Source of the DNA: Asticcacaulis solisilvae
Lineage (GTDB): Bacteria > Pseudomonadota > Alphaproteobacteria > Caulobacterales > Caulobacteraceae
DNA: 64,000 bases
Direction of reading: 5' to 3'
Assembly (NCBI RefSeq): GCF_017875235.1
Contig: NZ_JAGGMI010000001.1
Span: 372,001 to 436,000, forward strand
Within the stretch, counting starts at the first letter, position 1; every line of letters starts with the position of its first letter. Made by a program: the position numbers and the translations under genes. The notes below the pieces were generated by a model. That model ran no database searches and was not told where the DNA came from. It saw only the letters and a list, made by a program, of their open reading frames with translations. Shown in pieces: positions 41,615 through 56,675 of this stretch.

Positions 41615-42818
<1,204 letters not shown>

Positions 42819-42826
42819 AAGCAAAA

Positions 42827-42854
42827 AAAAGCCCCGGATCGCTCCGGGGCTTTT
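42827..42854. terminator. Bidirectional Rho-independent terminator
   Basis: Stem AAAAGCCCCGGA / TCCGGGGCTTTT with loop TCGC, with A and T runs on both sides, between convergent genes. Confidence 0.9.
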
Positions 42855-42872
42855 TAAACAACGACGCTGAGA

Positions 42873-43547
42873 TTAGCGCGTACCGGCCGTGGCGGCAGGG
42901 GCCGCGGCGTCGAGGGCCGCCGACTGGGCCTGCAGCTTCGGCAGGGTCGCCGAGGCAAAGGTCTTCGTCGAGGCATCGGTCGCTGTCGACGCGTAGGACT
43001 GGAACAGGGCCGTGGCCTTGTCGAGTTCCGCGCCTTGCAGTTCGACATACTTCTGGTCAAAGTCCTTGCCGGTCACTGACTGGAGATCGGCCAGCTTTTG
43101 CTTGTATTCCTGCGGCCAGGCCTGGTCGAAGTGCATGTCGGCAGTCGAGCCCTGGATGGCCTTGATCATCTCCTGGCGCGTCGCCGTGCCGTCAGTCAGC
43201 AGGGTTTGCGCGGCCGTCTTGACCTCGGCATCCGTGGACGTCTTCAGGGCGACCTGAGCGGCGGCGACACCGAACTCATTGGCAAGATAAGCCTGCTGGA
43301 TGAAGTCCTTGGGCGCCGTCGTGCCGGCGGCCGTCGCAGTATTGTCGGCAACCGGCGGAACGGCCGGCTGGGCCGGTGAGGTTGGCGCAGCGGACGGATC
43401 GGTGGTCGGGGTCTGCTGCACCGGCGGGACAGCCTGGGTGTCGGCAGCCGTTGGAGCGGTAGCATCCTGGGCAGAGGCGCCAAAGGCGGCGGCCGTCATG
43501 ACAGAAGCCAGTATAGCGGTGGCGGTATATTTGAACTTACGCGTCAT
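42873..43547 (-). CDS. DUF4142 secreted protein
   Basis: A 224-residue protein. The signal peptide MTRKFKYTATAILASVMTAAAFGASAQ is followed by a Pro/Ala/Thr-rich linker (about 28-75) and a helical DUF4142 domain: FIQQAYLANEFGVAAAQVALKTSTDAEVKTAAQTLLTDGTATRQEMIKA. Periplasmic. The family has a ferritin-like four-helix outline but no metal ligands are evident here. Function unknown. Confidence 0.85.
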   Translation of the reverse strand: MTRKFKYTATAILASVMTAAAFGASAQDATAPTAADTQAVPPVQQTPTTDPSAAPTSPAQPAVPPVADNTATAAGTTAPKDFIQQAYLANEFGVAAAQVALKTSTDAEVKTAAQTLLTDGTATRQEMIKAIQGSTADMHFDQAWPQEYKQKLADLQSVTGKDFDQKYVELQGAELDKATALFQSYASTATDASTKTFASATLPKLQAQSAALDAAAPAATAGTR

Positions 43548-43807
43548 CGCGATTCCTTTCGAGTATATCCGGAATGAATGGACGCGTTTACGCCAATCAA
43601 GGCATCACGTCCGTCGGGAACACCAAGACTAAAGGAAAGGATTGTTGCGAATATGACCCCGATGCAATTCAGATATAAATAAAGGGATGTTATATATTTT
43701 GGAAAAATAAATAACGAATATGGATTTCAATTGAAAATGCGGCAATTTGGCGAGTCTATGGCGGGCTTAAGGAAATCCTGAGGCCCGCCGCCCTTATCCA
43801 CAAGTCG

Positions 43808-44173
43808 TTATTTGGCCTTGGCGACTTTGGCTGCGGGCTCGTCGCCATTTTTCTTAAAATAGGCGTTGAGCGCTACGGCAGCGTCAGGATGGCCTTCGCA
43901 GCACTCTTCAACCATAAAGCCGACCAGCTCAGAAAAATGCGCAAAATTGGCCCGGTAGATGATGGAGCGGCCATCCCGATAGGCGGTCAGCAGGCCGGCC
44001 CCGGTCAGGATGCTTAGGTGGGTTGAGGCCGTGTTGGCGGGAATGCCGACGCTTTCGGCGATCTTGCCGGCGGCGATGCCATTCGGGCCGGCCTTGACGA
44101 TGGTGCGGAAGACATTCAGGCGGCCCGGATGAGCCAGGGCAAAGAGATTAACTACCGCATCGTCGTTGGTCAT
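43808..44173 (-). CDS. arsR: ArsR-family transcriptional regulator
   Basis: A 121-residue winged-helix regulator: LFALAHPGRLNVFRTIVKAG, IAESVGIPANTASTHLSILTGAGLLTAYRDGRSIIYRA. Two adjacent Cys and a His occur in VEECCEGHPD, a possible arsenite-binding site at the C-terminus rather than the usual alpha3 position. It likely represses ars genes until As(III) binds. It lies downstream of the arsC-like gene but is separated from it by a terminator hairpin. Confidence 0.88.
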   Translation of the reverse strand: MTNDDAVVNLFALAHPGRLNVFRTIVKAGPNGIAAGKIAESVGIPANTASTHLSILTGAGLLTAYRDGRSIIYRANFAHFSELVGFMVEECCEGHPDAAVALNAYFKKNGDEPAAKVAKAK

Positions 44174-44238
44174 AATTCAGCCTTTTGGGAAATAACGCTA
44201 GCCGATCAGTGTCTATTACGAAATTTTGGAAATATAAA

Positions 44239-44258
44239 GGCGCGCGGGTCCGCGCGCC
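44239..44258 (-). terminator. Hairpin terminator downstream of arsC
   Basis: Stem GGCGCGCGG / CCGCGCGCC with a GT loop, flanked by AT-rich sequence that gives a T run on the minus strand. Confidence 0.7.
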
Positions 44259-44325
44259 TATAAAAATAATGTTATAGAGCCGTGGCGAATTGCGGCTTGC
44301 TTTTTGCTGCGCGCCGCTGGCTTTT

Positions 44326-44850
44326 TTACGAAGCCATGCGTAGCGGAGTCTCGTCCATCCGCTCCAGCCAGCCAGCGACATTGCCCGACTCGAACAGGTT
44401 ATGCGGCATCTTGGACAGAGCGTCGATGCGAGCCGCCAGCTCGATATAGATTTCTTCGTAGGCGCGGGCGATGTTGGCCATGGCGACATGGGTTTCGCGC
44501 GGATCGTCGAAGAACCAGTCGACGATGACCGGCTGACCGCCACGGCAGGCCGGCCACTGGCCGCCGGCGGGATGGCCGTGCGACAGGCGGATGATCACGT
44601 CGAAAACAGGGGCATGTTTTCCAATGTGCGCCTCGACCGGCTTGGTCGATACCCAACCGGTATTGTACGGCATCCGATGCAGCATGGCGCGGGCATAGGG
44701 ACTGATGTCCGATACCGGATCGAAGCCGGCGGAACAGGCCTCGAAACGGCCTGCGCCCAGGCGGTTCAGCAGGGCTTCCGCCAGGATGGAACGCGCCGAA
44801 TTGTGCTCGCAGACAAACAGGACATTGATGGGACCGGATTTCTTTTTCAT
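44326..44850 (-). CDS. arsC: ArsC-like low-molecular-weight phosphatase/arsenate reductase
   Basis: A 174-residue LMW-PTP-fold protein: VLFVCEHNSARSILAEALLN with catalytic Cys14 and Arg20, and a late DWFFDDPRE that carries the acid Asp. The family reduces arsenate using thioredoxin or glutaredoxin. The usual resolving Cys pair in the TVCD...CPVWPG region is not conserved: here the segment is IIRLSHGHPAGGQWPACRGG. So it may use glutathione/mycothiol-type chemistry or have another substrate. Adjacent arsR supports an arsenic role. Confidence 0.8.
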   Translation of the reverse strand: MKKKSGPINVLFVCEHNSARSILAEALLNRLGAGRFEACSAGFDPVSDISPYARAMLHRMPYNTGWVSTKPVEAHIGKHAPVFDVIIRLSHGHPAGGQWPACRGGQPVIVDWFFDDPRETHVAMANIARAYEEIYIELAARIDALSKMPHNLFESGNVAGWLERMDETPLRMAS

Positions 44851-45036
44851 ACGCTCGCCCTTAATACCGGTGCCTTCTGTACCGGCCTAGAAGAGCATGT
44901 AAGCACACACTCATTATTCCATGATTTATGAATTGGGTAAATGAAGCTTAATCTTTTCGCGAAGCAGGATCAGATCGTGGCAAAAGACAATGCGGATCAG
45001 CTGCCGGCGGCAGCTTTTTCGCACCCGGCCAGCCCG

Positions 45037-45570
45037 CTAAAATAAGGCTTCGCGGATATAGATAATGGCGCCATTCGCGCTGGTGATGGGACCGTGCAAG
45101 GTATCGACCGCGATCAGCTGCATGTCGCCCGCCTTCAACACCGTGCCGTTGATCTGGATTTCGCCTTCCAGAACCAGACATTCCTCGGCGACTGTGTTCA
45201 GGTGACGATCGACAACGGCGCCCGGTCCGGCGCGGTAAAGCACCATACGGATGCCATTGTCGCCATCCTCGTGCAGCACCTTCAGCTCCAGGTTGGGCGC
45301 CACCGGCCGCCAAGGCAGGGCGCCGGGTGACACTGTGAGCGGCGGCGGGGCATCGCCGGAAATGGCCGCTTCGATCCGGTCCCAAACCGCGGGCGGCGGA
45401 TCTATCGGTTGGGTACCGCCATGCAGGTCGTCAAACGTGATCTGGAATTTCGCTACGAGGGCGGCAAAGGACGAGTCGCTTTCCAGCAGGCGCTCGGCGG
45501 TCGCTATCTCAGACGGCGCGGCGACACCCAGGGCGTACCGTGCGGCCAGGATATCGAGGGAATCAGTCAT
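45037..45570 (-). CDS. ChrR-type anti-sigma factor with cupin domain
   Basis: A 177-residue protein. The N-terminal part LDILAARYALGVAAPSEIATAERLL is typical of anti-sigma factors; the C-terminal half is a cupin: HLNTVAEECLVLEGEIQINGTVLKAGDMQLI and HGPITSANGAII. This matches the ChrR-like group that holds an ECF sigma factor until a signal such as singlet oxygen is sensed. The ATG overlaps the sigma factor's stop by 4 bp, as usual for sigma/anti-sigma pairs. Confidence 0.85.
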   Translation of the reverse strand: MTDSLDILAARYALGVAAPSEIATAERLLESDSSFAALVAKFQITFDDLHGGTQPIDPPPAVWDRIEAAISGDAPPPLTVSPGALPWRPVAPNLELKVLHEDGDNGIRMVLYRAGPGAVVDRHLNTVAEECLVLEGEIQINGTVLKAGDMQLIAVDTLHGPITSANGAIIYIREALF

Positions 45571-46133
45571 GCCGCCGTCATCGAGTCCTTGAGTTGGTTC
45601 AGACCGCGACGGACCCAGCTTTTGGCCGTACCCAGGGGCACGTTCAGCTCCTCAGCCAGTTCCTCGTGTGTCAGTCCTATGACATAGCATAGTTCCAGCG
45701 CACGGTTAACATCCGGCTTCAAATATTTTCGCAGATGCGAAAGTGTGATGCGGGTTTCAGGATCGACGGGAACACTTTCCCGCTCCTCGCTTGCCCCAAC
45801 GCAGTCAAAGATAGCGTCCAGGCCAATCTTTTCGCGCTGCGAGACGCGCAGACGGTCAATGGCCTTGCGCCGCGCGATCGACGACAGCCACGCATTCGCC
45901 TCGCCGCGTTCGGGATCGAATTGCGACGCTTTCTGCCAGACAGTGACAAAGGTATCCTGTAACAGTTCTTCTGCAACATCCCGCCGCTTGACCATTCGGG
46001 TCAGGATGGCGAACAGGCGTCCGGCGGTGTCCTGGTACAGAGCTTTCAAGGCGGTCGGATCGCCTTCAGCAACGCGAATCAACAGTGTGTTCAAACTGGT
46101 GGCCGGCGCGGCTGGGCCCGTGGTTGTTGGCAT
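45567..46133 (-). CDS. ECF sigma factor (RpoE/SigK-like)
   Basis: A 188-residue ECF sigma-70 factor. Region 2: LYQDTAGRLFAILTRMVKRRDVAEELLQDTFVTVWQKASQFDPERGEANAWLSSIARRKAIDRLR; region 4: LELCYVIGLTHEELAEELNVPLGTAKSWVRRGLNQLKD. It is cotranscribed with the overlapping ChrR-type anti-sigma gene and is divergent from a second ECF gene at 46340. Confidence 0.93.
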   Translation of the reverse strand: MPTTTGPAAPATSLNTLLIRVAEGDPTALKALYQDTAGRLFAILTRMVKRRDVAEELLQDTFVTVWQKASQFDPERGEANAWLSSIARRKAIDRLRVSQREKIGLDAIFDCVGASEERESVPVDPETRITLSHLRKYLKPDVNRALELCYVIGLTHEELAEELNVPLGTAKSWVRRGLNQLKDSMTAA

Positions 46134-46339
46134 AACCCGTTATCTCCCATGCGTCGCCGTCATGTGCGCGGACAATGCGTAAATTTACAATGTGGCTCGG
46201 TTAATGGAGGTCGCTTTCAGGCCAAGGTTGCATGTCGCATGAAAAAAAGTTTCGGCCGCTGCATCCGGCAAAACCACCCGCCTCGTAATGCTTAACAAAA
46301 GGTCAACGACCATAAGTGACGCCAGAGGAAACAAAGACC

Positions 46340-46843
46340 ATGCAGACGCCTGACGCCTTCCGCGAGGCCATGCTTGCGCAGATTCCCGTCCTGAAAGCCT
46401 TCGCATTGCGGCTGGTGAAGTCGCGCACGGAAGCCGACGACCTGGTCCAGGAAACCTTGATGCGCGCCTTACGGTACCGCGACACCTTCGAGGACGGCAC
46501 CAGCATGAAGTCCTGGCTGTGCCGGATCCTGCAGAACTGCTTCTATAAGGACGCCTCGCGCCGCCGCGACACTATCCAGGACGTCGAAGGCCGTTGCGCC
46601 GCGCAACAGATGGTCGCTGCGCCCCAGGAATGGTCTGTACTCTATGCCGAGATGCTGGCGGCCATCGACCGGCTGGCGCCCGAAACGCGCGACGCTTTTT
46701 TGATGGTGGTCGCCCATGGCGCCTCCTACGAGGAAGCCGCCCAGGCCTTCGATTGCCCCATCGGCACGCTCAAGAGCCGGGTCAGCCGCGCCCGCGACCG
46801 CCTGATGGCCCTCACGGACGACGTCCAAGCCCTTTCCGCCTGA
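46340..46843 (+). CDS. ECF sigma factor adjacent to Fap-like locus
   Basis: A 167-residue ECF sigma factor (ATG at 46340; a GTG at 46316 is possible). Region 2: VLKAFALRLVKSRTEADDLVQETLMRALRYRDTFEDGTSMKSWLCRILQNCFYKDAS; region 4: ETRDAFLMVVAHGASYEEAAQAFDCPIGTLKSRVSRARDRLM. It lies 26 bp before the outer-membrane barrel gene on the same strand, so it may be cotranscribed with and control the amyloid-like locus. No anti-sigma gene is next to it. Confidence 0.9.
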   Translation: MQTPDAFREAMLAQIPVLKAFALRLVKSRTEADDLVQETLMRALRYRDTFEDGTSMKSWLCRILQNCFYKDASRRRDTIQDVEGRCAAQQMVAAPQEWSVLYAEMLAAIDRLAPETRDAFLMVVAHGASYEEAAQAFDCPIGTLKSRVSRARDRLMALTDDVQALSA

Positions 46844-46869
46844 TCATTTCTTTATCCCAGGATCCCCGC

Positions 46870-48270
46870 ATGACCCGCCACTTCACCTTCCGCCCGTCGC
46901 TGCTGGCCCTGACGGCCGGGCTTGGCCTGATCAGCCTCGCCTCCCCCGCCATGGCGGACGAGGCCGACGGCAAGCGGCTGGAGCGAATCGAACAGATGAT
47001 GCGTCAGTATGAAGAGCGGCTGGCGGCGCAGGAAAAGAGGCTGGCCGAGCAGGAAGCGCGTCTGAAAAGCCAGGAGACCGAACTGGTCGCCCTGCGTTCA
47101 CGCACCGCCGCGCCGCAGCTGGCCGGAAGCGATCCGCGCACCACGCGCGAAAAGCTGCGCGACCGCGTGCTGGCCTACACCAATGGCGGCTCGCCCGAAG
47201 ACCCCGTGCTTGGCAGCGGCAGCGCCAATGCGGCGTTGGCCACGGTGCGCGCCGGGTCAGGCGGCTATGCCACAGCGTTGGCCGGCGCCATGCAGGTCGA
47301 ACCCGTGACCGGTAATACGCCACAGCGCCCGGTCGGTGAAGCGCCGCCGCCGGAACGAAAGGTCGAGGTCACCGCCCTGCCCGAACGCGTCGGCGTGCTG
47401 ACACCACGCGGCAAGTTCGTTATGACGCCGTCCTTCGAATATGTCCGCTCCAGTTCCAACCGTCTGGTCTTCCGCGGGGTCGAAATCGTACCGGGCATCC
47501 AGTTGGGTGTGATCGAGGCCAATGACGCAGACCGCGATTCAGCCGTAGGCGCGATAGGCCTGCGCTACGGCCTGACTCGCCGCTTTGAAATCGAAGGCCG
47601 CATTCCCTATGTCTATCGCCACGACCGCGTAACGACCGTCGCCCAGCGCGATGAGACGATTTCGCGCACCATCGAACTCGACGGCCAGGGCGCCGGCGAT
47701 GTCGAAATCTCGGCACGTTACCAGATCAACGAGGTCAGGCCCGGCAAGCCGATTTTCGTCGCCAATGCGCGATATAAGCCGGCTACGGGCTTGGGCCCCT
47801 ACGACGTCGGCTACGACGAATTCGGCGTGGCGAAGGAATTGTCGACCGGTTCAGGCTTCGACGCCATCGAAGGCGGCGTGACCATGCTGTATCCGACAGA
47901 CCCGGCCGTCATTTTCGCGTCCTTAAGCTACCTGCACAACCTGCCCAAGGACATCGACAAGGAGATCGGTGATGCCATGATCGGCCGCGTCGAGCCCGGC
48001 GACTCGATTGGCGCGTCCCTGGGCTTTGGCCTGTCGCTCAATCCGCGCTTCTCCGTGTCTTTCGGCTACAGCCACAACTACATCTTCCCGACCAAGACCG
48101 AGATCGGCTCGACGTGGCAGGAATCGAACAGCCTCCAGGTCGGCTCGATCCTGATGGGCTGGTCGTTCCGCCTGACCGAAAAGCTGACCCTGTCCAACAA
48201 TTTTCAGTTCGGCGTAACCTCCGACGCCCCCGGTATGCAGGCGGTGTTCAGCCTGCCGGTCCGATTTTAA
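46870..48270 (+). CDS. Outer-membrane beta-barrel protein, FapF-like transporter
   Basis: A 466-residue protein starting at the ATG at 46870. The signal peptide MTRHFTFRPSLLALTAGLGLISLASPAMA is followed by a coiled coil (KRLERIEQMMRQYEERLAAQEKRLAEQEARLK, about 34-66), a disordered linker (about 75-165) and a C-terminal beta-barrel (about 180-466, ending SLPVRF with a terminal Phe). FapF of the Pseudomonas functional-amyloid system has this very plan: coiled-coil plug region plus trimeric barrel. The neighbouring C39 protease and repeat protein support the assignment. The family is also annotated as MetA-pathway transporters. Confidence 0.75.
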   Translation: MTRHFTFRPSLLALTAGLGLISLASPAMADEADGKRLERIEQMMRQYEERLAAQEKRLAEQEARLKSQETELVALRSRTAAPQLAGSDPRTTREKLRDRVLAYTNGGSPEDPVLGSGSANAALATVRAGSGGYATALAGAMQVEPVTGNTPQRPVGEAPPPERKVEVTALPERVGVLTPRGKFVMTPSFEYVRSSSNRLVFRGVEIVPGIQLGVIEANDADRDSAVGAIGLRYGLTRRFEIEGRIPYVYRHDRVTTVAQRDETISRTIELDGQGAGDVEISARYQINEVRPGKPIFVANARYKPATGLGPYDVGYDEFGVAKELSTGSGFDAIEGGVTMLYPTDPAVIFASLSYLHNLPKDIDKEIGDAMIGRVEPGDSIGASLGFGLSLNPRFSVSFGYSHNYIFPTKTEIGSTWQESNSLQVGSILMGWSFRLTEKLTLSNNFQFGVTSDAPGMQAVFSLPVRF

Positions 48271-48486
48271 GCACAAAGCGTAAAGAGGCCGGGGAACATT
48301 ACTGCTTTTTTATAAACCAGATTATACAAATGAGATCGCAATTCTTTATGCGCATGATTTGCGTCCATTTTTCAAGAAATAAAATTAGTAAAAATATTTT
48401 TAAAAGCATGCAACCAAAGTCTAGTTCTAGAGATTGTACTTCCGGGAGGACATCCCTCCGAACTCAAATCTCAAAGGTAGACTGAA
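48271..48486 (+). promoter_or_regulatory. AT-rich leader upstream of the repeat protein
   Basis: About 216 bp markedly AT-rich (for example AAATAAAATTAGTAAAAAT around 48377) between the barrel gene and the repeat-protein gene. It probably carries a separate strong promoter for the repeat protein. No exact sigma box could be assigned. Confidence 0.45.
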
Positions 48487-49782
48487 ATGACCGCAAAGAA
48501 TATGACGTTACTGGCCTCTGTATCGGCCATGGCTCTGGGCCTGACGCTGGCCGGTGGCGCGATGGCGCAGGACATTACCGACAGCTACAACAACAATTCG
48601 ACCAACACCGAAAACCAGGACGGGTCGGTGCACAACTCGAACAACGACCTTTCGGACGCTTCGACGCACAACTCTAACAACGATAACTCGACCACGGACA
48701 ACTCGACCTGGGCCGACAATTCCGACAATTCGACCAGCGACGCCTCAACGCATAACTCGAACAACGACAATTCGATGAGCGATGCTTCGACCCACAATTC
48801 GAACAACGACAGCTCCACGACCGACAATTCGACCTGGGCCGACAACAGCGACAACTCGACCCACGATGCTTCGGACAACTCGACGACCGACAATTCGGAT
48901 AACTCGAACAACTCCGATAACTCGACGCACGACTCGTCCAACAACTCGACCTGGGCTGACAACTCGAACAATTCGGATAATTCGACGCACGACGCATCGG
49001 ATAACAGCACCACCGACAACTCGACCTGGGCTGACAATTCCGACAACTCCACGACCGACAATTCGGACAACTCGAACAACTCCGACAACTCGACGCACGA
49101 TGCCTCGGACAACTCGAACAATTCTGACAACTCGACGCACGATGCGTCGGACAACAGCACCACCGACAACTCGACCTGGGCTGACAATTCCGACAACTCC
49201 ACGACCGACAATTCGGACAACTCGACCAGCGACAGCTCGACTCACAACTCGAACAACACCGACAGCTCCGATAACTCGACCACGGACAATTCGGACAACT
49301 CGAACAACAGCGACAATTCGACGACCGACAATTCCGACAATTCGAACAATTCGACAAACGACTCGAACAACAACAGCTCGATGAATGACTCGAACAACGA
49401 CAACTCGGACAACTCGGACAACTCGACGCACAATTCGAACAACAACAACTCGGTCAACGACTCCAACAACGACAGCTCCAGCTGGAGCCAGTCGGATTCG
49501 GGCAACAACAATTCGGTCAACGACTCGAATAACGACTCGTCAGTCACCTATACCAGCCTGAACACCCAGCAACTGGAAGCCTCGGTCAGCGGCGTCGGCA
49601 TCGATCAATCGACCGACCAGGACAATGACGGCCAGGTCAACACCGGCGCCATCGACACCGACGGCGGCTCCTATGCCAACTTCGCCGGCATCCAGACCGC
49701 CAGCAACAACACCGGCATCGGTTCGGTCAACCAGGTGGCGACGGCTGTTTCGGCCAACGCCAACATCAGCTTCGGTCAATAA
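48487..49782 (+). CDS. Secreted Asn/Ser/Asp/Thr repeat protein, candidate amyloid subunit
   Basis: A 431-residue protein. The signal peptide ends near GGAMAQ (residue 28). Residues 29-355 consist almost only of Asn, Ser, Asp and Thr in short units such as DNSTTDNSTWADNSDNST and DASTHNSNND, with Trp in each TWAD unit, no Cys and almost no Lys or Arg. The last 75 residues form a different domain (SLNTQQLEASVSGVGIDQS...) with NNTGIGSVNQVATAVSANANISF, which resembles amyloid-type Asn/Gln ladders. AAAGGTAGACTGA precedes the ATG. Near-identical 70-bp DNA blocks show recent repeat expansion. By position it is a FapC-like fibre subunit; proof is lacking. Confidence 0.75.
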   Translation: MTAKNMTLLASVSAMALGLTLAGGAMAQDITDSYNNNSTNTENQDGSVHNSNNDLSDASTHNSNNDNSTTDNSTWADNSDNSTSDASTHNSNNDNSMSDASTHNSNNDSSTTDNSTWADNSDNSTHDASDNSTTDNSDNSNNSDNSTHDSSNNSTWADNSNNSDNSTHDASDNSTTDNSTWADNSDNSTTDNSDNSNNSDNSTHDASDNSNNSDNSTHDASDNSTTDNSTWADNSDNSTTDNSDNSTSDSSTHNSNNTDSSDNSTTDNSDNSNNSDNSTTDNSDNSNNSTNDSNNNSSMNDSNNDNSDNSDNSTHNSNNNNSVNDSNNDSSSWSQSDSGNNNSVNDSNNDSSVTYTSLNTQQLEASVSGVGIDQSTDQDNDGQVNTGAIDTDGGSYANFAGIQTASNNTGIGSVNQVATAVSANANISFGQ

Positions 49783-49862
49783 GACCTGAGACTGCCAACT
49801 CCGGGCCGGCCAGGCAGCCGGCCCGGGTCTGGTTTTTCCGGGAATGAACAAGGGATATCTCA

Positions 49863-50222
49863 ATGATTACGCTTTTCCCGGCCGCTCTGCTGGCCGCCGC
49901 ATTGGTCACCGCACCGCCGGCAATCGAGACACCTGCGGCCGAAAGTTCTGAAACGCCCATGGCTATTGAAGATCTGGACGCCACCGCCGCGCAGGGCGTC
50001 GAGATCAACACCATTTCCGACCAGGACCTGAACGCCGTCAACAGCGGCAACACCATCGTCGCCAATACGCTTACCAATGGCGACATCTCGTTCTCAGCCG
50101 GAGCGCTCAGCGGCTTCAGCGGCGTCGGCAACTTCGTCACCAATACCGGCAACAATTCGAACCTGCAGGGCAGCATCAGCGTCACCATCACCAACAGCGC
50201 CGATCTTCCGTCCCTGCCCTAA
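49863..50222 (+). CDS. Small secreted protein, FapB/FapA-like candidate
   Basis: A 119-residue protein with a signal peptide (MITLFPAALLAAALVTAPPA). The mature part contains ISDQDLNAVNSGNTIVANTLTNGDISFSAGALSGFSGVGNFVTNTGNNSNLQGSISVTI. The closing NTGNN..LQ.SISVTI pattern recurs in the 50955 protein (NTADNRDIRQEVNVTL), which suggests that the two share a fold. It may be a minor fibre subunit or chaperone. Confidence 0.65.
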   Translation: MITLFPAALLAAALVTAPPAIETPAAESSETPMAIEDLDATAAQGVEINTISDQDLNAVNSGNTIVANTLTNGDISFSAGALSGFSGVGNFVTNTGNNSNLQGSISVTITNSADLPSLP

Positions 50223-50234
50223 GTTCCGAAGAAC

Positions 50235-50951
50235 ATGAAATTAGGTCCGCTCGTCATCACCGCCCTGTTATTCACCTGCGCGCCGTGCGCTGTCCAGGCA
50301 CAGGCAATGCTTGCCGACGGCGGCATCCACTTCAACGTGCCCGTCGTCAGCATGGCGGACATTCCCTTCCGCACCGTCGTCCGCCAGCAATACGACTATA
50401 GTTGCGGCTCGGCGGCGCTGGCGACCCTGCTCCATTATCACTATGACCTGCCGGTCACCGAAGGCGAAGTCTTCAAGGCCATGTACGCCGTCGGCGACAA
50501 GGACCGCATCCGCAAGGTCGGCTTCTCGCTTCTGGATATCAAGAAATATCTGGCGAGCCATGGCCTCGAGGCCGATGGCTACCGCGCCACCTTCGAACAG
50601 CTGGCCAAGGTCAACCGTCCGGCCATAGCCGTTGTCACAGTCGGCACCTATCGCCACTTCGTCGTCATCAAGGGCGTGCGCGACGGCCGCGTCCTGGTCG
50701 GAGATCCGGCCCTGGGCCTGAAGACCTATACCAAGGCCGAATTCGCCGCCATGTGGAACGGCGTCATCTTCGCCGTTCACGCGTCGAACAGGACGAAGGC
50801 CGCCTATAACCGTGACGAAGAGTGGACGCCCTACGCCATCGCGCCGCTGGGCAGCCCGTTGACCGACGATTCGCTGTCGGGATTCACACGCGAACTGCCA
50901 CCGATCTACCAGGTGTCGGTGGCGATCGACGGCTCCATCGGCAGGAATTGA
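50235..50951 (+). CDS. C39-family cysteine peptidase, FapD-like
   Basis: A 238-residue secreted peptidase. The signal ends near VQAQA. The catalytic Cys57 lies in QYDYSCGSAALATLLHYHYDLPV, His141 in YRHFVVIKGVRDGRVL and Asp157 in VGDPALG, the C39 triad. It is not fused to an ABC transporter, unlike bacteriocin exporters. The stand-alone C39 enzyme of the Fap system (FapD) has this size and these motifs and is needed for fibre secretion. It lies 12 bp after the 49863 gene. Confidence 0.85.
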   Translation: MKLGPLVITALLFTCAPCAVQAQAMLADGGIHFNVPVVSMADIPFRTVVRQQYDYSCGSAALATLLHYHYDLPVTEGEVFKAMYAVGDKDRIRKVGFSLLDIKKYLASHGLEADGYRATFEQLAKVNRPAIAVVTVGTYRHFVVIKGVRDGRVLVGDPALGLKTYTKAEFAAMWNGVIFAVHASNRTKAAYNRDEEWTPYAIAPLGSPLTDDSLSGFTRELPPIYQVSVAIDGSIGRN

Positions 50952-50954
50952 CAC

Positions 50955-51488
50955 ATGAAATACGCCGCACTCTGCCTGATTGCCCTTCTCACCACCTCCC
51001 CCGCCCTGGCGCAGGACGGCCCACCTCTGGCGACCGAAGAACTGGAACGCGAAGTTGGAGGCTTCCAGACACCTTCGGGCCTTGAGGTCGGCTTCGGCGC
51101 CGAGGTCCGCACCTATGTCGACGGGCAGCTGGCGCTGCAGACCCACCTGACGTGGACGGACCAGGGCGCGGTCCAGACGACCACGGCCGCCAATGGCGCC
51201 GACCTGTCGGACGCCGCCGGCGCCGGCATCCATATCGATGGCGCGCCGGGTACAGGCCTTTTCCTGCCGGGCGACAATGGCGGGACGGTGGTGCTGCACG
51301 GCCTGGACAGCGACCAGATCTCGGGCCTGATCTTCAACACGGCCGACAATCGCGACATCCGCCAGGAGGTCAATGTCACGCTGAACGTGCCGGACCTGAC
51401 CCAGTTCCAGAAGGACGTCGCCGGCCAGCAGCTCGACCTGCGGCTTCAGGAAACGATCGGCCGCGCGCTCGAAAATACTCTGCGATAA
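50955..51488 (+). CDS. Secreted protein, FapE/FapA-like candidate
   Basis: A 177-residue protein with a signal peptide (MKYAALCLIALLTTSPALA). The start is 3 bp after the peptidase stop. The C-terminal half has GLIFNTADNRDIRQEVNVTLNVPDLTQFQKDV, related to the motif in the 49863 protein. Its order and size fit an accessory (FapE/FapA-like) protein. A strong terminator follows. Confidence 0.65.
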   Translation: MKYAALCLIALLTTSPALAQDGPPLATEELEREVGGFQTPSGLEVGFGAEVRTYVDGQLALQTHLTWTDQGAVQTTTAANGADLSDAAGAGIHIDGAPGTGLFLPGDNGGTVVLHGLDSDQISGLIFNTADNRDIRQEVNVTLNVPDLTQFQKDVAGQQLDLRLQETIGRALENTLR

Positions 51489-51503
51489 GGACGACCAGAC
51501 GCA

Positions 51504-51538
51504 AAAACGCCTGCCGCGAGGAGGGCGGCAGGCGTTTT
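51504..51538. terminator. Bidirectional Rho-independent terminator
   Basis: Stem AAAACGCCTGCCGC / GCGGCAGGCGTTTT with loop GAGGAGG, between the convergent Fap-like locus and ctrA. Confidence 0.9.
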
Positions 51539-51562
51539 CTTGTCTTCTAATCGGGCTGCGCT

Positions 51563-52264
51563 TTACGCGGCGACAGTGCCCGACTGATCGTGCGGGTCGC
51601 GCAGGACGTAGCCGCGGCCCCAGACGGTTTCAATATAGTGGTTGCCGTCGGCGGCGACTGCCAGCTTCTTGCGCAGCTTGCAGATGAACACGTCGATGAT
51701 CTTCAGTTCGGGCTCGTCCATACCGCCGTACAGGTGGTTCAGGAACATTTCCTTGGTGAGCGTCGTGCCCTTGCGGAGCGACAGCAGCTCCAGCATTTCG
51801 TATTCCTTGCCCGTCAAGTGGACACGGTTGCCGGAGACTTCGACGGTCTTGGCGTCCAGGTTGACGACGATGTCGCCGGTGCGGATGACCGACTGGGCGT
51901 GGCCCTTCGAACGGCGGACAACGGCGTGGATACGGGCGATCAGCTCGTCCTTGTGGAACGGCTTGGTCATATAGTCGTCGGCGCCGCCGCCGAGTGTCTT
52001 GACCTTGGTTTCGATTTCGGCGGTGCCCGACAGGATCATCACAGGCGTGTTGACCTTGCCGACGCGCAGCTGACGCAGGACTTCGAGGCCCGACATGTCG
52101 GGCAGCGACAGGTCGAGCAGGATGAGGTCGTAATCGTAGATCTTGCCCAGATCGACGCCTTCCTCGCCCAGGTCGGTGGTGTAAACGTTGAAGCCTTCCG
52201 ACTTGAGCATCAGCTCGATGCTCTGAGCGGTGGCGCTGTCGTCTTCAATCAGCAGTACGCGCAT
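51563..52264 (-). CDS. ctrA: Cell-cycle response regulator CtrA
   Basis: A 233-residue OmpR-type regulator from the ATG at 52264 (GGGAGGGG upstream). The receiver starts [20 protein letters not shown] with phospho-Asp51 in [13 protein letters not shown]; the DNA-binding domain has [52 protein letters not shown], a CtrA hallmark. It ends GTVAA, like the Ala-Ala degron recognised by ClpXP. It binds TTAA-N7-TTAA and controls division, flagellum and replication genes, receiving phosphate through ChpT. The upstream region has many GANTC sites. Confidence 0.97.
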
Positions 52265-52910
52265 ATAAGCCCCTCCCGGCTTGTGGGAACAGATCGGCCC
52301 AGGCGGGATGCCTGTCCTGTTAACTTTCATGCTAAACAGGAAATCCCTACAGATTCGTTAAGCTTAACACCTCCCCTCGGGTAAGGTGATTTGCGAATCG
52401 GGAGCAAGAGTCCGGAGTCAAGAAAATAGACAGTTCACAGATTTTTTACGGCCATTTTTTGGCAATGAATCTTTTAAATCACACACTTAGACGTGACGAC
52501 TCAGGCGAAAAATCCTGTGCGTAAATCGCCAAACAGGCGAAAAACGGAACCCTTTCTACCCGAAATGTGCCGTTAACATGTGAAAAAAACCGCCACTTTT
52601 GAGTCATAAATATTGCCAAAAATGTATAAGAGACCCTGAAGGCCGACACTCAAGACCTTAAGCCCATATACGCGGCTACCGCAGAACAATGGGCGCAACC
52701 GTTTTCAAACGAAATGTTTGCATAGGTCAAAAGTGCACAAATGCACTCAACTGGAAGTTTTTTCAGATAACGCTCAAGAATAGACCGAGCAACCGGCGCG
52801 CGTTGAAATGATATCCTTCACCTTGATGGCCGCCAAACCAATTGAACCAATTCATCAATTTTCAAGACTCGATTCGTACTCTTGCTCTCAAATATAAGGA
52901 GCGGACCGCC
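52265..52910. other. Long intergenic region upstream of ctrA
   Basis: 646 bp between the divergent ctrA and the double-receiver gene. It contains GANTC sites, a perfect palindrome TTAAGCTTAA (52358-52367), TTAAC at 52320 and an AT-rich stretch (52430-52620). It should contain both ctrA promoters and the promoter of the 52911 gene. No gene was recognised. Confidence 0.6.
52352..52605. promoter_or_regulatory. Cluster of seven GANTC (CcrM) sites upstream of ctrA
   Basis: GANTC occurs at 52352, 52395, 52408, 52415, 52467, 52498 and 52601, seven times in 254 bp, where about one is expected by chance. In Caulobacter a GANTC in the ctrA P1 promoter makes transcription depend on hemimethylation after replication-fork passage. 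Two further adjacent sites are at 52866 and 52871. Confidence 0.75.
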
Positions 52911-53675
52911 ATGAGTAAGAGTACCGCGTTGATTATCGAAGATAGTCAAACCCAGGGAGAATTTATTGGCCGCATGCTGGCGCGCGAGGAATGGAATTAC
53001 GTCCTCTGCAAGGAGATCAAGGCCGCACGCGATCTTTTGAAGTACGAAAAGGTCCAGTTGATGCTGATCGACATCTACCTGGCCGAAGAAACCAGCCTGC
53101 CGCACCTGCCGGCCTTGCGCGAAGCCGCGCCATCGACGCCGATCGCCGTCATGAGCGCCGGCACCAAGGACGAAGACGTCGCCATGGCGCTGAACGCAGC
53201 GCGCAATGCCGGCGCGGACTTCGTGCTGAGAAAGCCGTTCAATCCGGATCAGATCCGCCCCATCCTGACCAGCGCCCGCATCGAACAGACGCGCGGCGGC
53301 CGTCGCAAGCACGCCCTGGTCGTCGACGACTGCCGCTTCGTGCGCCATCACACGATCGACGTGCTCGACAAGGCCGGCTATCGCACCAGCGAAGCCAAGA
53401 CGATGGAAGAGGCGTTCAAGAACATCGACATCGCCCACGTTGACCTGGTCGTCAGCGACATCTTCATGCCCGGCATGGGCGGCATCGAAGGCATCAAGCG
53501 CATCAAGACGACCTGGCCGAGGGTCAAGGTCATCGCCATGTCGGCCGGGCTCGAGATGCGCCTGCCGACCGAAAAGGCATTGCTGGCCGCGAAGGTGGTC
53601 GGCGCCGACGGACAGTTGCCCAAGCCATTCGACGACGGCGTGCTGACAAACATGGCCGGGTCGCTGCTCCGTTAA
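52911..53675 (+). CDS. Double-receiver response regulator
   Basis: A 254-residue protein from the ATG at 52911 (AAGGAG upstream). Two tandem receiver domains: the first has ALIIEDSQT and LMLIDIYLAEE, with KPFN; the second has ALVVDDCRFVRH, phospho-Asp in LVVSDIFMPGMGG and KPFDDG. There is no output domain, so it may act as a phosphate sink or adaptor. The first receiver's switch motif lacks the usual DxxMPxMDG form. It is divergent from ctrA. Confidence 0.88.
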   Translation: MSKSTALIIEDSQTQGEFIGRMLAREEWNYVLCKEIKAARDLLKYEKVQLMLIDIYLAEETSLPHLPALREAAPSTPIAVMSAGTKDEDVAMALNAARNAGADFVLRKPFNPDQIRPILTSARIEQTRGGRRKHALVVDDCRFVRHHTIDVLDKAGYRTSEAKTMEEAFKNIDIAHVDLVVSDIFMPGMGGIEGIKRIKTTWPRVKVIAMSAGLEMRLPTEKALLAAKVVGADGQLPKPFDDGVLTNMAGSLLR

Positions 53676-53679
53676 ACAA

Positions 53680-53722
53680 GCGCTTTCCAAAAAGTGTGAA
53701 GCGGTTTTTGGACAGAAAGCGC
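53680..53722. repeat. Dispersed intergenic repeat, copy 6 (compound hairpin)
   Basis: Outer stem GCGCTTTC / GAAAGCGC and inner stem CAAAAA / TTTTTG around GTGTGAAGCGG. It sits between two convergent genes and likely acts as a bidirectional terminator. Confidence 0.75.
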
Positions 53723-53730
53723 GCCAAAAA

Positions 53731-55683
53731 TCAGACTAGCGGGGTAAAGCCGCAGTCAATGAGATAGTCGTAGGTGCCGTCGTAATAGTCCGGCGGGCGC
53801 GTGGCGTCGGCGGCGTCGCCCTTCGGCACGAAAACGGTCATACCCTGGCGCGCGCGGGTCAGGATGACGCGATAGGCGTTACGCAGATACAGCCGACGGA
53901 AGCGATCATTGATCGCCTGCCAGCGCGTACCTTTGAAATTCCAGCTCTGCCAGCCGTCATTGTAACGCAGGTCGGCATCCCAACAGACGGCAGCATAATC
54001 GAGCTCAAGCCCCTGGACATCGAACTCGCTGGCGACCTCCTCCATATAGAAAGACGAGCGGACGTCGTTGCGGTCATTAAGGAACCAATTGGCCGGGTCG
54101 ATGCCCGCCTTGACGTGTAGGCCTTCCGGCCGTAGGCGATGCGCGCCTGACGATGCTACCAGCCCATAGCGTTCCGAGCCGCGCGCCGTTGTCCTCAGCC
54201 AGTCTTTCGCGGCCCTGAGATCGCGCGTCACAAACAGCGGATATTGGTTCAGTTGCATCGATGCCGCTTTTGCCGCCTCCACATCACCGTTCAGCACATG
54301 CGCAATAAATGCCGACAGCGTTTCGGCGCGGAAGGACCGCATCGACACGCTCAGGTGCAGATCTTCGTTCAAACTGACATGCGATTGTTCAATAAAGATG
54401 CGGGCATCGGCATTGAGGTCATAGTCCGGCTGGACGATCTGCGCCGAGGCATGGACCCGCCAGTGCGGGAAGCGGTCGCGGATCGCCGCCATCCATTCCG
54501 ACAGGCCGGCCTCACCGGTATTGATCTCCTGGCCGCCGCCGATCAGGCAGACCACCGTGCACCAGTCGGGGTGGCGATCCATGACGCTGAGCAGGAATTC
54601 CGGCTCGGACATGTCGAAATCGGCCACGCCCTTCTTGCGCTGCATGAAGCTCGACGCCTGCGCCCGCGTCCAGGCGCGCTGGGCCTCGTCGAAGACGACG
54701 ACGTGATCGGACGGCGCGGCCTGGCTGCGCGTCGCGTATTCGTCGCGAAATTCGTGGATGTTCTGGATGAAGGCGCGCACCTTGCTGTGGGCGAAGGCCC
54801 GCGACACGTCTTCCCGCGCGGCCTGATCGCGTGCCAGCGCCTGTTGCAGCACCTGGATCAGCGGACCATTGCCGGTCAGGTAGGTAGCGTGGGCGGTCCG
54901 GTCCTCGCTGCGCTTGGTGGCGACATTCAGCCCGGCCAGGGTCTTGCCGGCACCCGGCACGCCGGTGATAAAGCAGATCGCCTTCCAACCATTCGCCCGC
55001 GCATCATCGATCACCTGTCCGATGGCCGCCTCGGTCCGCGTCAGGTTGATAGCGCCGGCGTCGCGACGCGTGATCTCCTCGACATTATGATTGGCGTAAA
55101 GCGCCTGCGCCGCCTGGATGATGGTCGGGGTCGGCCGATAGCCGCTAGCGGCCCAGGCGGCCGCGTCCATCTGGATATGACGATGATAGGCGCTGGCCAT
55201 GCGAATAATGTCGGCCAGGTCGATGACGCTCGACAGCACGGGCCTGGCTACCTGCGCCAGCGCCATTTCCAGCTGCACAGCGCGCGCCGCCGGCGCCTTG
55301 GTCGGCACCAGGACGGGAATGATCGACAGGGCGTGGCTACCCTCGTGGAAATTCTTGAGGTCGAGCGCATAGTCTTCGACCTGCTCGATGGCGTGGCGAT
55401 CGAAGGTTTCGGCCCCAACCTTGAACTCGATGACGAAGATGCAATCGCCGATGACCAGCACGGCATCTGCGCGTTTGCCCATGCGCGGGATCGAAAACTC
55501 AAACGCCAGCGTGTAGGCGTCGATTGCCGCCAAGGCGTTGCGCATGATGCGAATCTGCTGAAGCCACGCGCTCTTCTGCTCGATCTCGAGCGCGAAATTA
55601 TGCCGGCGTGTCAGCTCGCCCAGAATATGGTCGTCAGTGTCGCTTTCGAACCTGGCGCGATCGGCTGTGTAATAGGCGCGCAT
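53731..55683 (-). CDS. Nuclease-helicase: PD-(D/E)xK-like domain plus DUF2075 helicase
   Basis: A 650-residue protein from the ATG at 55683 (GGGGAGGG upstream). Residues 60-95 (RADAVLVIGDCIFVIEFKVG) fit a PD-(D/E)xK nuclease core with Asp73, Glu87 and Lys89. The DUF2075 (Schlafen-3-like) P-loop helicase follows: Walker A GVPGAGKT (241-248), Walker B VVVFDEAQR (Asp332, Glu333), and motif VI LTRARQGMTVFVP near the C-terminus. Such proteins are scattered in bacteria and often linked to DNA repair or phage defence. It stands alone here. Confidence 0.85.
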   Translation of the reverse strand: MRAYYTADRARFESDTDDHILGELTRRHNFALEIEQKSAWLQQIRIMRNALAAIDAYTLAFEFSIPRMGKRADAVLVIGDCIFVIEFKVGAETFDRHAIEQVEDYALDLKNFHEGSHALSIIPVLVPTKAPAARAVQLEMALAQVARPVLSSVIDLADIIRMASAYHRHIQMDAAAWAASGYRPTPTIIQAAQALYANHNVEEITRRDAGAINLTRTEAAIGQVIDDARANGWKAICFITGVPGAGKTLAGLNVATKRSEDRTAHATYLTGNGPLIQVLQQALARDQAAREDVSRAFAHSKVRAFIQNIHEFRDEYATRSQAAPSDHVVVFDEAQRAWTRAQASSFMQRKKGVADFDMSEPEFLLSVMDRHPDWCTVVCLIGGGQEINTGEAGLSEWMAAIRDRFPHWRVHASAQIVQPDYDLNADARIFIEQSHVSLNEDLHLSVSMRSFRAETLSAFIAHVLNGDVEAAKAASMQLNQYPLFVTRDLRAAKDWLRTTARGSERYGLVASSGAHRLRPEGLHVKAGIDPANWFLNDRNDVRSSFYMEEVASEFDVQGLELDYAAVCWDADLRYNDGWQSWNFKGTRWQAINDRFRRLYLRNAYRVILTRARQGMTVFVPKGDAADATRPPDYYDGTYDYLIDCGFTPLV

Positions 55684-55787
55684 TATCCCTCCCCGCAGCC
55701 CACAGGTGTGCCAGGTCAGCAGCGGGTGCGCAAGCCGCCTTGCCGAAAGGCATATCCATGCCAATCTTGGACGGACAGGGAGGCCTC

Positions 55788-56675
55788 ATGACCGTTACCA
55801 CCACCTTGAACGGCTATATCCGCCGTGACCTAAAACCGGACGGACCGGTGCTGATCCGCATCAACGGCCCCGCCGGTCCTGACGCACCATGGGAGGCCGC
55901 GCCGCCCGTCGACATTCGCGATGCCCGGCCGCCGCAGGCAGGCGCGAGCGAAGACGCGTTTCTGGAGGACCACGGCTTTGTCCTGCTGAAGCATCAGTCT
56001 GCCGTGAAGGACTGGGATTCAGGCGGCGCCACACCTTATGAGCAGAACGAGATCGCGCGCATCTACATGCCCGAAGTCGAGGCCATCATTCGTCAGCGCC
56101 TGCTGCCAGGCAAAGCGCTTGAAATCGAACAGGGCCCTTACATCGTCCGGCGTGGGCCCAGTACTAATGGCTACGCACAGGGCATACATAACGACTACGG
56201 TCTGACACCCGACGATTACCAGGAAAGCTTGGAAGCCTGGTCGACGCCGGAATATGCGGCAGCGTGGCGGCAGAGGTTCGACCGGCCGGAGGTCGCGGGC
56301 TTCGTGGTCATCAATTTCTGGCGAACGGTCTATATGGACGCGGCGTTGAAGCACATGCCGCTGGCCGTGTGCGATCCCCATACCGTCAAGAGAGAAGACA
56401 AGGTCCACGCAGCTCTCGTTGGCTTCGCCCCGACCGGCAAGAATACCAACCAGTTGTCGCTGCGATATTCGCCCGAACAGCAGTGGTGGTATTATCCCGA
56501 CATGACGCCCGAAGAGGTCCTAGCCTTCAAGATCTTCGAATATATGAAGGACAGCCCGGATGCCGCGCCGGGCACCTGCTTTCACACCGCCTTTGCGGAC
56601 CCAAACGCACCCGCCGATGCGCCGCCGCGCAACAGTTGCGAGCACCGCGTCGGAGTCGTCATCCTTCGAAATTGA
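55788..56675 (+). CDS. CmcJ/NvfI-family oxidoreductase/hydroxylase-like protein
   Basis: A 295-residue protein from the ATG at 55788 (GGGAGG upstream). Its layout (FLEDHGFVLLKHQSAVKDWD, IHNDYGLTPDD, GFVVINFWRTVY, WWYYPDMTPEEVLAFKIFEY, FADPNAPADAPPRNSCEHRVGVVIL) matches the CmcJ/NvfI family related to asterriquinone/cephamycin-type non-haem Fe oxygenases; His and Asp in HNDY could bind iron. The substrate is unknown. It starts 105 bp from the divergent nuclease-helicase gene and precedes the MarR-GNAT gene. Confidence 0.75.
   Translation: MTVTTTLNGYIRRDLKPDGPVLIRINGPAGPDAPWEAAPPVDIRDARPPQAGASEDAFLEDHGFVLLKHQSAVKDWDSGGATPYEQNEIARIYMPEVEAIIRQRLLPGKALEIEQGPYIVRRGPSTNGYAQGIHNDYGLTPDDYQESLEAWSTPEYAAAWRQRFDRPEVAGFVVINFWRTVYMDAALKHMPLAVCDPHTVKREDKVHAALVGFAPTGKNTNQLSLRYSPEQQWWYYPDMTPEEVLAFKIFEYMKDSPDAAPGTCFHTAFADPNAPADAPPRNSCEHRVGVVILRN

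Follow-up and report, generated by a model that had tools for sequence, protein, structure and literature searches.

The Fap system of Pseudomonas, encoded by genes in the order fapABCDEF, combines a FapF-type outer-membrane barrel, the periplasmic C39 peptidase FapD, the small protein FapE, and the proteins FapB and FapC, which contain three imperfect repeats. The substitution C38A in FapD was reported to block FapC secretion, and the N-terminus of FapE was lost in mass spectrometry; Rouse et al. (2017) described the Fap proteins as being without canonical C39 sequences, suspected FapE, and left the FapD target open (PMC5557850). Profile searches gave 1594 FapD and 217 FapF matches, as against 70 and 69 curated ones, with most matches counted as false positives, and FapD and FapF were thought likely to belong to larger families (Dueholm et al., 2013; PMC3792158). 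Furthermore, Rouse et al. (2018; PMC6173800) reported fapD in the vicinity of fapF for five additional phyla. Recent accounts of GTDB screens that required a match to the FapB/FapC repeat give three repeats as almost universal (Jiang et al., 2025, PMC12392863; 2025 review, PMC12822426), and the review terms Fap evolutionarily "fixed" (PMC12822426). A 64,000-nucleotide stretch of Asticcacaulis solisilvae (Caulobacterales; contig NZ_JAGGMI010000001.1, positions 372,001 to 436,000; hereafter the window) contained a six-gene locus that is probably a Fap-related amyloid-type export locus, belonging to a sister branch of the classical fapABCDEF operons. Its homology to Fap is well supported by sequence comparison of the barrel and the peptidase with FapF and FapD, by intact catalytic residues, and by a conserved gene set, leader, and C-terminal module.

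The six open reading frames (ORFs) of the locus were all confirmed on the plus strand, with the order and coordinates that an initial annotation, made from the letters alone, had given. The features are as follows:

46316..46843, + strand: extracytoplasmic function (ECF) sigma factor gene (Pfam Sigma70_r2, 4e-14; r4_2, 2e-14)
46870..48270, + strand: FapF-like outer-membrane barrel, 466 aa, with an N-terminal coiled-coil-like stretch (NCBIfam NF058560, PDB 5o67)
48440..48462, + strand: G+C-rich hairpin in the mRNA leader of the repeat protein, about 25 bases 5' of the ATG (fold z -2.4)
48487..49782, + strand: secreted low-complexity protein rich in Asn, Ser, Asp, and Thr (N/S/D/T), presumed fibre subunit, 431 aa (composition, signal peptide, tandem repeats)
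49618..49779, + strand: C-terminal module, single copy, at residues 378-431 of the repeat protein (75.4 bits, profile score)
49863..50222, + strand: small secreted protein 1, FapA/FapB-like, 119 aa (module match, alignment A3)
50235..50951, + strand: FapD-like stand-alone C39 peptidase with a signal peptide, 238 aa (NCBIfam NF058616; Pfam C39, 1e-23)
50955..51488, + strand: small secreted protein 2, FapE-like, 177 aa (profile A2, beta-rich model)
51027..51062, + strand: double-glycine leader of small protein 2, residues 25-36, LATEELEREVGG, then FQTPSG (alignment A2, model, motif survey)

The gene order therefore differs from fapABCDEF, with the sigma factor first, followed by the FapF-like gene, the subunit, small protein 1, the FapD-like gene, and small protein 2. 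ORFs were taken from the earliest start codon, and thus their lengths are possibly too long; the alternative ORF start of the barrel at 46594 runs into the sigma factor gene, and the ATG at 46870 is the likely start.

The best NCBIfam match of the barrel was FapF (E 2e-34, 119 bits; equivalog cut-off 700 bits), followed by FilC (E 1e-14), and its best PDB match was the solved FapF structure (E 6e-26). For the peptidase, FapD ranked first (E 1.3e-46, 158.7 bits; cut-off 330) and FilB second (E 1.8e-39), as against 55.5 bits for the best bacteriocin model (NHLM ABC). Residues Gln51, Cys57, His141, and Asp157 were invariant in alignment A1 (12 sequences, the window's among them), and the same residues together with Asp54 were invariant in 62 of 62 peptidases of a tree set that included 16 classical FapDs. 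The Fap-like reading in the initial annotation was borne out: of the results named there as contrary to it, a barrel closest to an unrelated transporter and a C39 protein closest to bacteriocin processing, neither occurred in NCBIfam, and the Cys57/His141/Asp157 listed there were confirmed. The Fil putative pilus system, whose host genus is Acinetobacter, was matched by both proteins, although the Fap models matched better. Curli (CsgA/CsgG) are similar in outline, with a secreted low-complexity fibre subunit and a dedicated outer-membrane channel. In contrast to curli, the channel and protease here are of the Fap kind, and no Csg match was listed for the six proteins in Pfam or NCBIfam (for the sigma factor, among its best 25 NCBIfam matches).

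A contig scan with a C39 alignment yielded at least 573 confirmed relatives, the best 80 of which, from named genomes, were kept, and a FapF search of the order gave a match in 37 of 299 genomes, from which 30 loci were taken. Together with the window, 111 loci were examined, 100 of them with a peptidase; the 11 loci without a C39 match were left out of the counts per C39 gene. The closest named relative among the best 80 was Asticcacaulis tiandongensis (L062), with a peptidase identity of 68%. A family of small secreted proteins stood beside the C39 gene in 93 of the 100 loci and on both sides of it in 76, and a FapF-like gene occurred in 93, in four different placements. Because 19 of the 100 loci had been fetched by FapF (small-protein family in 13, FapF-like gene in all 19), the fairer counts come from the 80 loci whose retrieval rested solely on C39 similarity, namely 79 and 73, respectively. 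The branch to which the locus belongs is widespread. The barrel could instead be a COG4313-type importer of hydrophobic molecules that lies by chance beside an unrelated protease locus, given that FapF is structurally close to COG4313-type channels (PMC6173800, PMC5557850) and that eleven survey loci showed a FapF-like match with no C39 match in the fetched stretch. Since a FapF-like gene accompanied 73 of the 80 C39-fetched peptidases and took four placements over all 100 loci, accidental adjacency offers no explanation, and this highly improbable reading was rejected on those grounds. The eleven loci (L040, L043, L044, L045, L049, L050, L051, L052, L058, L060, and L061) may be solitary channels, split loci, or contig-end cuts.

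In a tree of 62 C39 peptidases from hand-chosen loci, all 16 classical FapDs lay on one side of a branch with support 99/93, and 43 peptidases of the window's kind grouped together (98/95), outside the classical clade; L036, L046, and L053 fell outside both groups. The locus had been annotated as a Caulobacterales version of Fap, a restriction that did not hold, since the same branch was also found in Sphingomonadales, Burkholderiales, Lysobacterales, Chromatiales, Marinobacter, Geobacterales, and others. Among 398 Pseudomonadota genomes, a FapE-like profile (A2) gave 18 matches, two of which were classical FapE, while FapF gave 42 matches, 7 of them above the cut-off; 20 genomes with FapF at 340 bits or more were taken as classical or near-classical. 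Genomes G328 and G382 held a high- and a low-scoring FapF at separate places, with a FapE-like match near the low-scoring one, and thus the two kinds can coexist. Of the loci outside both groups, L046 and L053 represent a third kind of C39 locus of the same order; their peptidases group together, and their secreted proteins end in NSGIxxxNQSTG-like stretches that are nearer to classical Fap.

Double-glycine leaders, known from bacteriocins, have hydrophobic residues at positions -12 and -7, an acidic residue at -8, and GG at -2/-1. The downstream small protein of the branch carried such a leader shortly after the signal peptide, with the pattern L/V/M-x3-E-L-x3-R-G-G-F. In the window, LATEELEREVGG has L at -12, E at -8, L at -7, and GG at -2/-1 and thus conforms to the double-glycine pattern, although -4 is Glu rather than hydrophobic and -3 is Val where others have Arg. 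Owing to this Val, the protein was missed by a strict regular expression (R/S/A/T at -3), but it aligned with both Gly in place in A2, where the two Gly are invariant in 26 sequences despite a mean column identity of only 23% (alignments A2, A3, and A4, of 26, 38, and 34 sequences, were hand-chosen for spread). The expression matched 76/80 downstream and 42/90 upstream small proteins, as compared with 0/80 repeat proteins, 9/100 peptidases, and 46/1770 other ORFs of 100-400 aa; the rates in shuffled sequences, for which each set was capped at its first 200 proteins, were 7.1, 2.3, 5.5, 3.2, and 3.9%, respectively. Among 96 picked leaders, L or M occupied -7 in 93 and R occupied -3 in 90, counts that lean on the choice of the best-scoring G-G/G-A 12-mers, three of which were poor picks (L122 and the classical L181 and L184). 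The predicted model of small protein 2 (mean predicted local distance difference test, pLDDT, 84.7) shows a helix at residues 27-34 before Gly35-Gly36, followed by a folded, beta-rich domain of about 140 residues. A PDB sequence search with the small protein 2 profile gave no match at E<=1, and no Pfam family was found for the small proteins (one DUF4165 match, 0.0067, among the 26 relatives of small protein 2, and none among the 38 of small protein 1).

The same leader was found in FapE in 16 of 16 classical loci, with its last Gly replaced by Arg (10) or Lys (6) and followed by Tyr or Phe, as in LKDAEMADLRGR-F, VPEHELAEMRGR-Y, and IADEELGSIRGK-F; unlike these GR or GK endings, the leader of the branch ends in GG. 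The expression used for classical FapE also permitted G, H, S, Q, and A at the last position, and replaced a first version that had matched 10/16 loci, one of them (L181) on the wrong ORF. Candidate acidic residues in classical FapD for the cut-site Arg/Lys were confined to two columns, both in the C-terminal tail (window residues 211 and 213). Profile A2 found classical FapE at the place of FapE in genomes G656 (E 3e-4) and G383 (E 8e-4), and matched classical FapE in 2 of the 16 classical loci at E<=1e-3 (L181, 2e-5; L184, 1e-4). A leader in FapE fits the reported requirement of the FapD Cys for secretion and the missing FapE N-terminus (PMC5557850). Judged by its sequence, small protein 2 is a strong candidate for the FapD target, with a predicted cut after Gly36. 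The FapD substrate question could thereby become a one-tube test, the leader being plain in the branch and its GR/GK version present in every classical FapE surveyed. Loci L036 and L037, which are closely alike and both from genome G275, encode a protein of about 375 aa upstream of the C39 gene, with the leader-like stretches LTDAQLGTVTAG and LSDAQLGAVAAG directly after the signal peptide.

A leader of the double-glycine kind, and a peptidase whose PDB matches were bacteriocin transporters (best E 2e-8; no FapD was returned by the PDB search), would also suit a bacteriocin or contact-killing system in which double-glycine peptides directed at competitors are processed by the C39 enzyme; a surface-associated two-protein bacteriocin has been described in Caulobacter (PMC5380434). 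The C39 domains of bacteriocin ATP-binding cassette (ABC) transporters indeed share the peptidase family and the leader pattern, but the peptidase here is stand-alone with a signal peptide, and the leader comes after a Sec signal peptide. Furthermore, a Pfam scan detected no ABC transporter among the 16 proteins at 41832-56675, the peptidase matched FapD 100 bits above the best bacteriocin model, and small protein 2 is modelled as a folded protein and not as a peptide. On these points the bacteriocin reading, which we regard as very improbable, was rejected.

The repeat protein of the window (431 aa) contained N 103, S 100, D 66, T 52, K 1, and R 0, and its gene contained tandem repeats of 9-72 bases. 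Throughout the branch the repeat proteins have similar ends, in most Caulobacterales members a variant of F-A-G-I-Q-T-x3-N-T-G...A-N-x-x-I-x-F-G. The window's copy of this module was scored with a profile from which the window, L032, and L062 had been excluded; none of 200 shuffles reached its score (best 16.3 bits), and the reversed sequence gave 3.5. The composition filter for seed repeat proteins left 20 of the 100 C39 loci without one. Among the 80 repeat proteins scored, the module lay at the C-terminus in 71 (at 12 bits or more; 0/80 when reversed), one had its best match internally, and 8 had no module; the copy number was one in 70, more in 2, and none in 8. Since 34 of these 80 were the members from which the profile was built, the remaining 46 were also counted separately, with 37 C-terminal, 1 internal, and 8 absent. 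These counts come from runs without bias correction, controlled by shuffles and reversals, in which the window's protein and the 71 C-terminal modules were found; default bias correction in hmmsearch missed the window's protein and found 36/80. With an earlier profile at default settings, 114 module proteins were detected in 82 of 100 loci (70 small, 36 seed repeat, and 8 other proteins), with the module no more than 15 residues from the C-terminus in all of them and in a single copy in 108 (two to five in the other 6). The module profile found no match in a PDB sequence search at E<=1. A count of module-ended ORFs per locus by regular expression was too strict (none in 44/100 loci) and was not used.

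The module leads by way of relatives to FapB. That earlier module profile, built only from the 80 repeat-protein C-termini, matched FapB in 13 of the 16 classical loci (E 1e-4 to 0.023), as against 0 of 10,053 reversed ORFs at E<=0.1. In comparisons of profile pairs, the probability was 97.3% for repeat proteins of the window clade with other repeat proteins (L036, L037, and L053 excluded from the latter), 65% for these others with FapB, 84.6% for the window-clade repeat protein with small protein 1, 83% for FapB with the FapC repeats, and, for small protein 1 with FapB, 58% in the window clade and 33% in other clades. Reversed controls reached at most 2.04%. Column shuffles stayed within 4%, apart from those for the two small-protein-1 sets against each other, of which two out of five gave 6% and 35%. 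The subunit had been annotated as unrelated to that of Fap; its N/S/D/T repeats are indeed unlike FapC, but the last ~50 residues appear, by this indirect route through relatives, to be linked to the imperfect repeat of FapB, and the protein is therefore not wholly unrelated.

Small protein 1 has a weak signal peptide with no Lys or Arg close to the start, a leader-like helix at residues 35-41 with a conserved Leu38, and the C-terminal module at residues 71-110 (A3). The module was matched at E 0.0014, and at 2.8e-7 in a second round, and FapA models matched the window's protein at E 0.025 and 0.046. Its structure model is of low confidence (mean pLDDT 66.5), with strands at 88-94 and 99-105. 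In the family the leucine position is kept (L in 35 and M in 3 of 38), with GG in 15/38 and GR in 9/38. The sequence pattern reported as common to the two small proteins was present (NTGNNSNLQGSISVT and NTADNRDIRQEVNVT) and lies beyond chance: the C-terminal profiles of small protein 2 and small protein 1 (without Caulobacterales members) compared at 88.7% probability, as against 0.16% for a reversed alignment and at most 0.81% for five column shuffles.

Several observations weigh against a Fap-related amyloid-type locus. The scores of both the barrel and the peptidase lie under the NCBI equivalog cut-offs, which makes the locus a relative of Fap and not a textbook member. The NCBI FapE model matched 3 of 26 relatives of small protein 2, with the window's protein not among them, and Foldseek with the model of this protein returned no solved relative at E<=0.001 (best E 0.13). 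FapA models matched none of 38 small protein 1 relatives at E<=0.01. In the window's small protein 1, Ala-Gln stands at the Gly-Gly position of many other members; for this reason, and because FapA is seemingly uncut in Pseudomonas (PMC5557850), its cleavage is doubtful. Eight of the 80 repeat proteins carry no module. Direct comparison of the window-clade module gave 0.6% with FapB and 0.24% with the FapC repeats, and other repeat proteins gave 0.67% with the FapC repeats and small protein 2 0.08% with FapB. A profile of 29 classical repeats scored 5/80 repeat-protein ends above the shuffle threshold, and gave the window's end 1.7 bits, as compared with 8.7 for its own reverse. The classical repeat was therefore not directly recognized in the repeat protein of the window, and homology is claimed through intermediates. 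Because our classical-repeat profile found those five ends only, the branch would probably mostly fail the published screens for the FapB/FapC repeat, whose profile is another one. No description of the branch, module, or leader was found in the open-access literature, a search that covered few subscription papers and no bioRxiv preprints.

From the signal peptide to the module, the repeat proteins of the branch have a low-complexity body of variable composition. Median N+D+S+T of the body was 0.61-0.76 in Caulobacterales, Sphingomonadales, Chromatiales, and Pseudomonadales groups, 0.27-0.42 in Rhodospirillales, Rhodocyclales, Lysobacterales, Acidithiobacillales, and Aeromonadales (one to five proteins each), and 0.34 in Burkholderiales, where G+A was 0.54; ORF lengths ranged from 164 to 1105 residues. 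Such freedom would be more in keeping with a spacer or brush than with a cross-beta core. The initial annotation implied that the N/S/D/T segment is itself the fibre core, an unrelated amyloid that is stacked by its own short repeats and has borrowed the Fap export machinery. Strong periodicity at the DNA level agrees with this proposal, as does a profile search that found neither a second module copy nor a FapC-like repeat within the segment, but the segment is strongly acidic with few hydrophobic residues, and it varies in length among close relatives (431 aa in the window, 353 in L032, 335 in L062) and in composition among orders, unlike a register-bound core; we consider this origin of the core improbable. 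Alternatively, Fap-like machinery could export a non-amyloid product, the low-complexity protein being a soluble or brush-like surface polymer or an adhesin, with the module only an export signal for the barrel. A body that differs between orders while the last ~50 residues stay conserved would be expected of such a product, and so would a largely single module close to the C-terminus in the 114 proteins detected. Against it, the module links to the repeat of the amyloid-fibre protein FapB, and small protein 1, a likely nucleator or chaperone, carries it too. A non-amyloid product is thus unlikely, though it deserves more weight than a core formed by the N/S/D/T segment.

For the Fap-related amyloid-type locus that we prefer, the following route is inferred. 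Five proteins would leave the cytoplasm by Sec: the repeat protein, the two small proteins, the peptidase, and the barrel. The periplasmic C39 peptidase would bind the amphipathic leader of small protein 2 and cut after Gly35-Gly36, and this cut would license export through the FapF-like barrel, comparable to Pseudomonas, where FapD and its active-site Cys are required. The same C-terminal module (G-I/V-x5-N-T/S-G...), of predicted strand-turn-strand form, is carried by the repeat protein and by small protein 1; it may serve as a cross-beta stacking unit, an export signal, or both. Since the subunit has a single module, unlike the three repeats of classical FapB and FapC, each monomer would contribute one layer to the fibre core, and the acidic N/S/D/T segment would stand off as a brush. 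The locus thus resembles Fap in its barrel, its periplasmic C39 peptidase with the same catalytic residues, its FapE-like protein with the same leader, and its secreted low-complexity subunit with a small accessory protein that has a putative FapB-type module. For a broader proposal we see the balance as about even: an overlooked second Fap branch would be about as common as the classical one in the sampled Pseudomonadota (16 vs. about 20 of 398 genomes), its amyloid core would be the single C-terminal module of the secreted proteins, its clades would swap the low-complexity body (an acidic N/S/D/T brush or a silk-like G/A one), and FapE would be the FapD substrate superfamily-wide, with the cut after R-G-G in this branch and after G-R or G-K in the classical system. 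If true, Fap machinery would be able to carry subunits that have one repeat and an interchangeable body, and surface fibres could be engineered on this natural template.

The locus had also been described as being under the adjacent ECF sigma factor. Adjacency was confirmed in four Caulobacteraceae loci (the window, L032, L062, and L097) by a search of the 100 loci for same-strand ORFs of similar size within 6.5 kb, and a fifth member of the sigma-factor cluster lay about 4.5 kb from the peptidase in L037. Control of the locus by this factor is suggested; a simple search found no promoter motif common to the upstream regions of the sigma factor and repeat-protein genes. The hairpin before the repeat-protein start may control translation, and hairpins with changed stem sequences were present at the corresponding place in L062, L097, L032, and L064 (fold z -0.7 to -2.5). 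Directly upstream of the locus, a second ECF sigma factor gene and a ChrR-type cupin gene are divergently oriented (45037-46133). Downstream, on the opposite strand, lies a gene (53731-55764) whose 677-aa product has a Schlafen group 3 helicase domain (Pfam E 8e-81).

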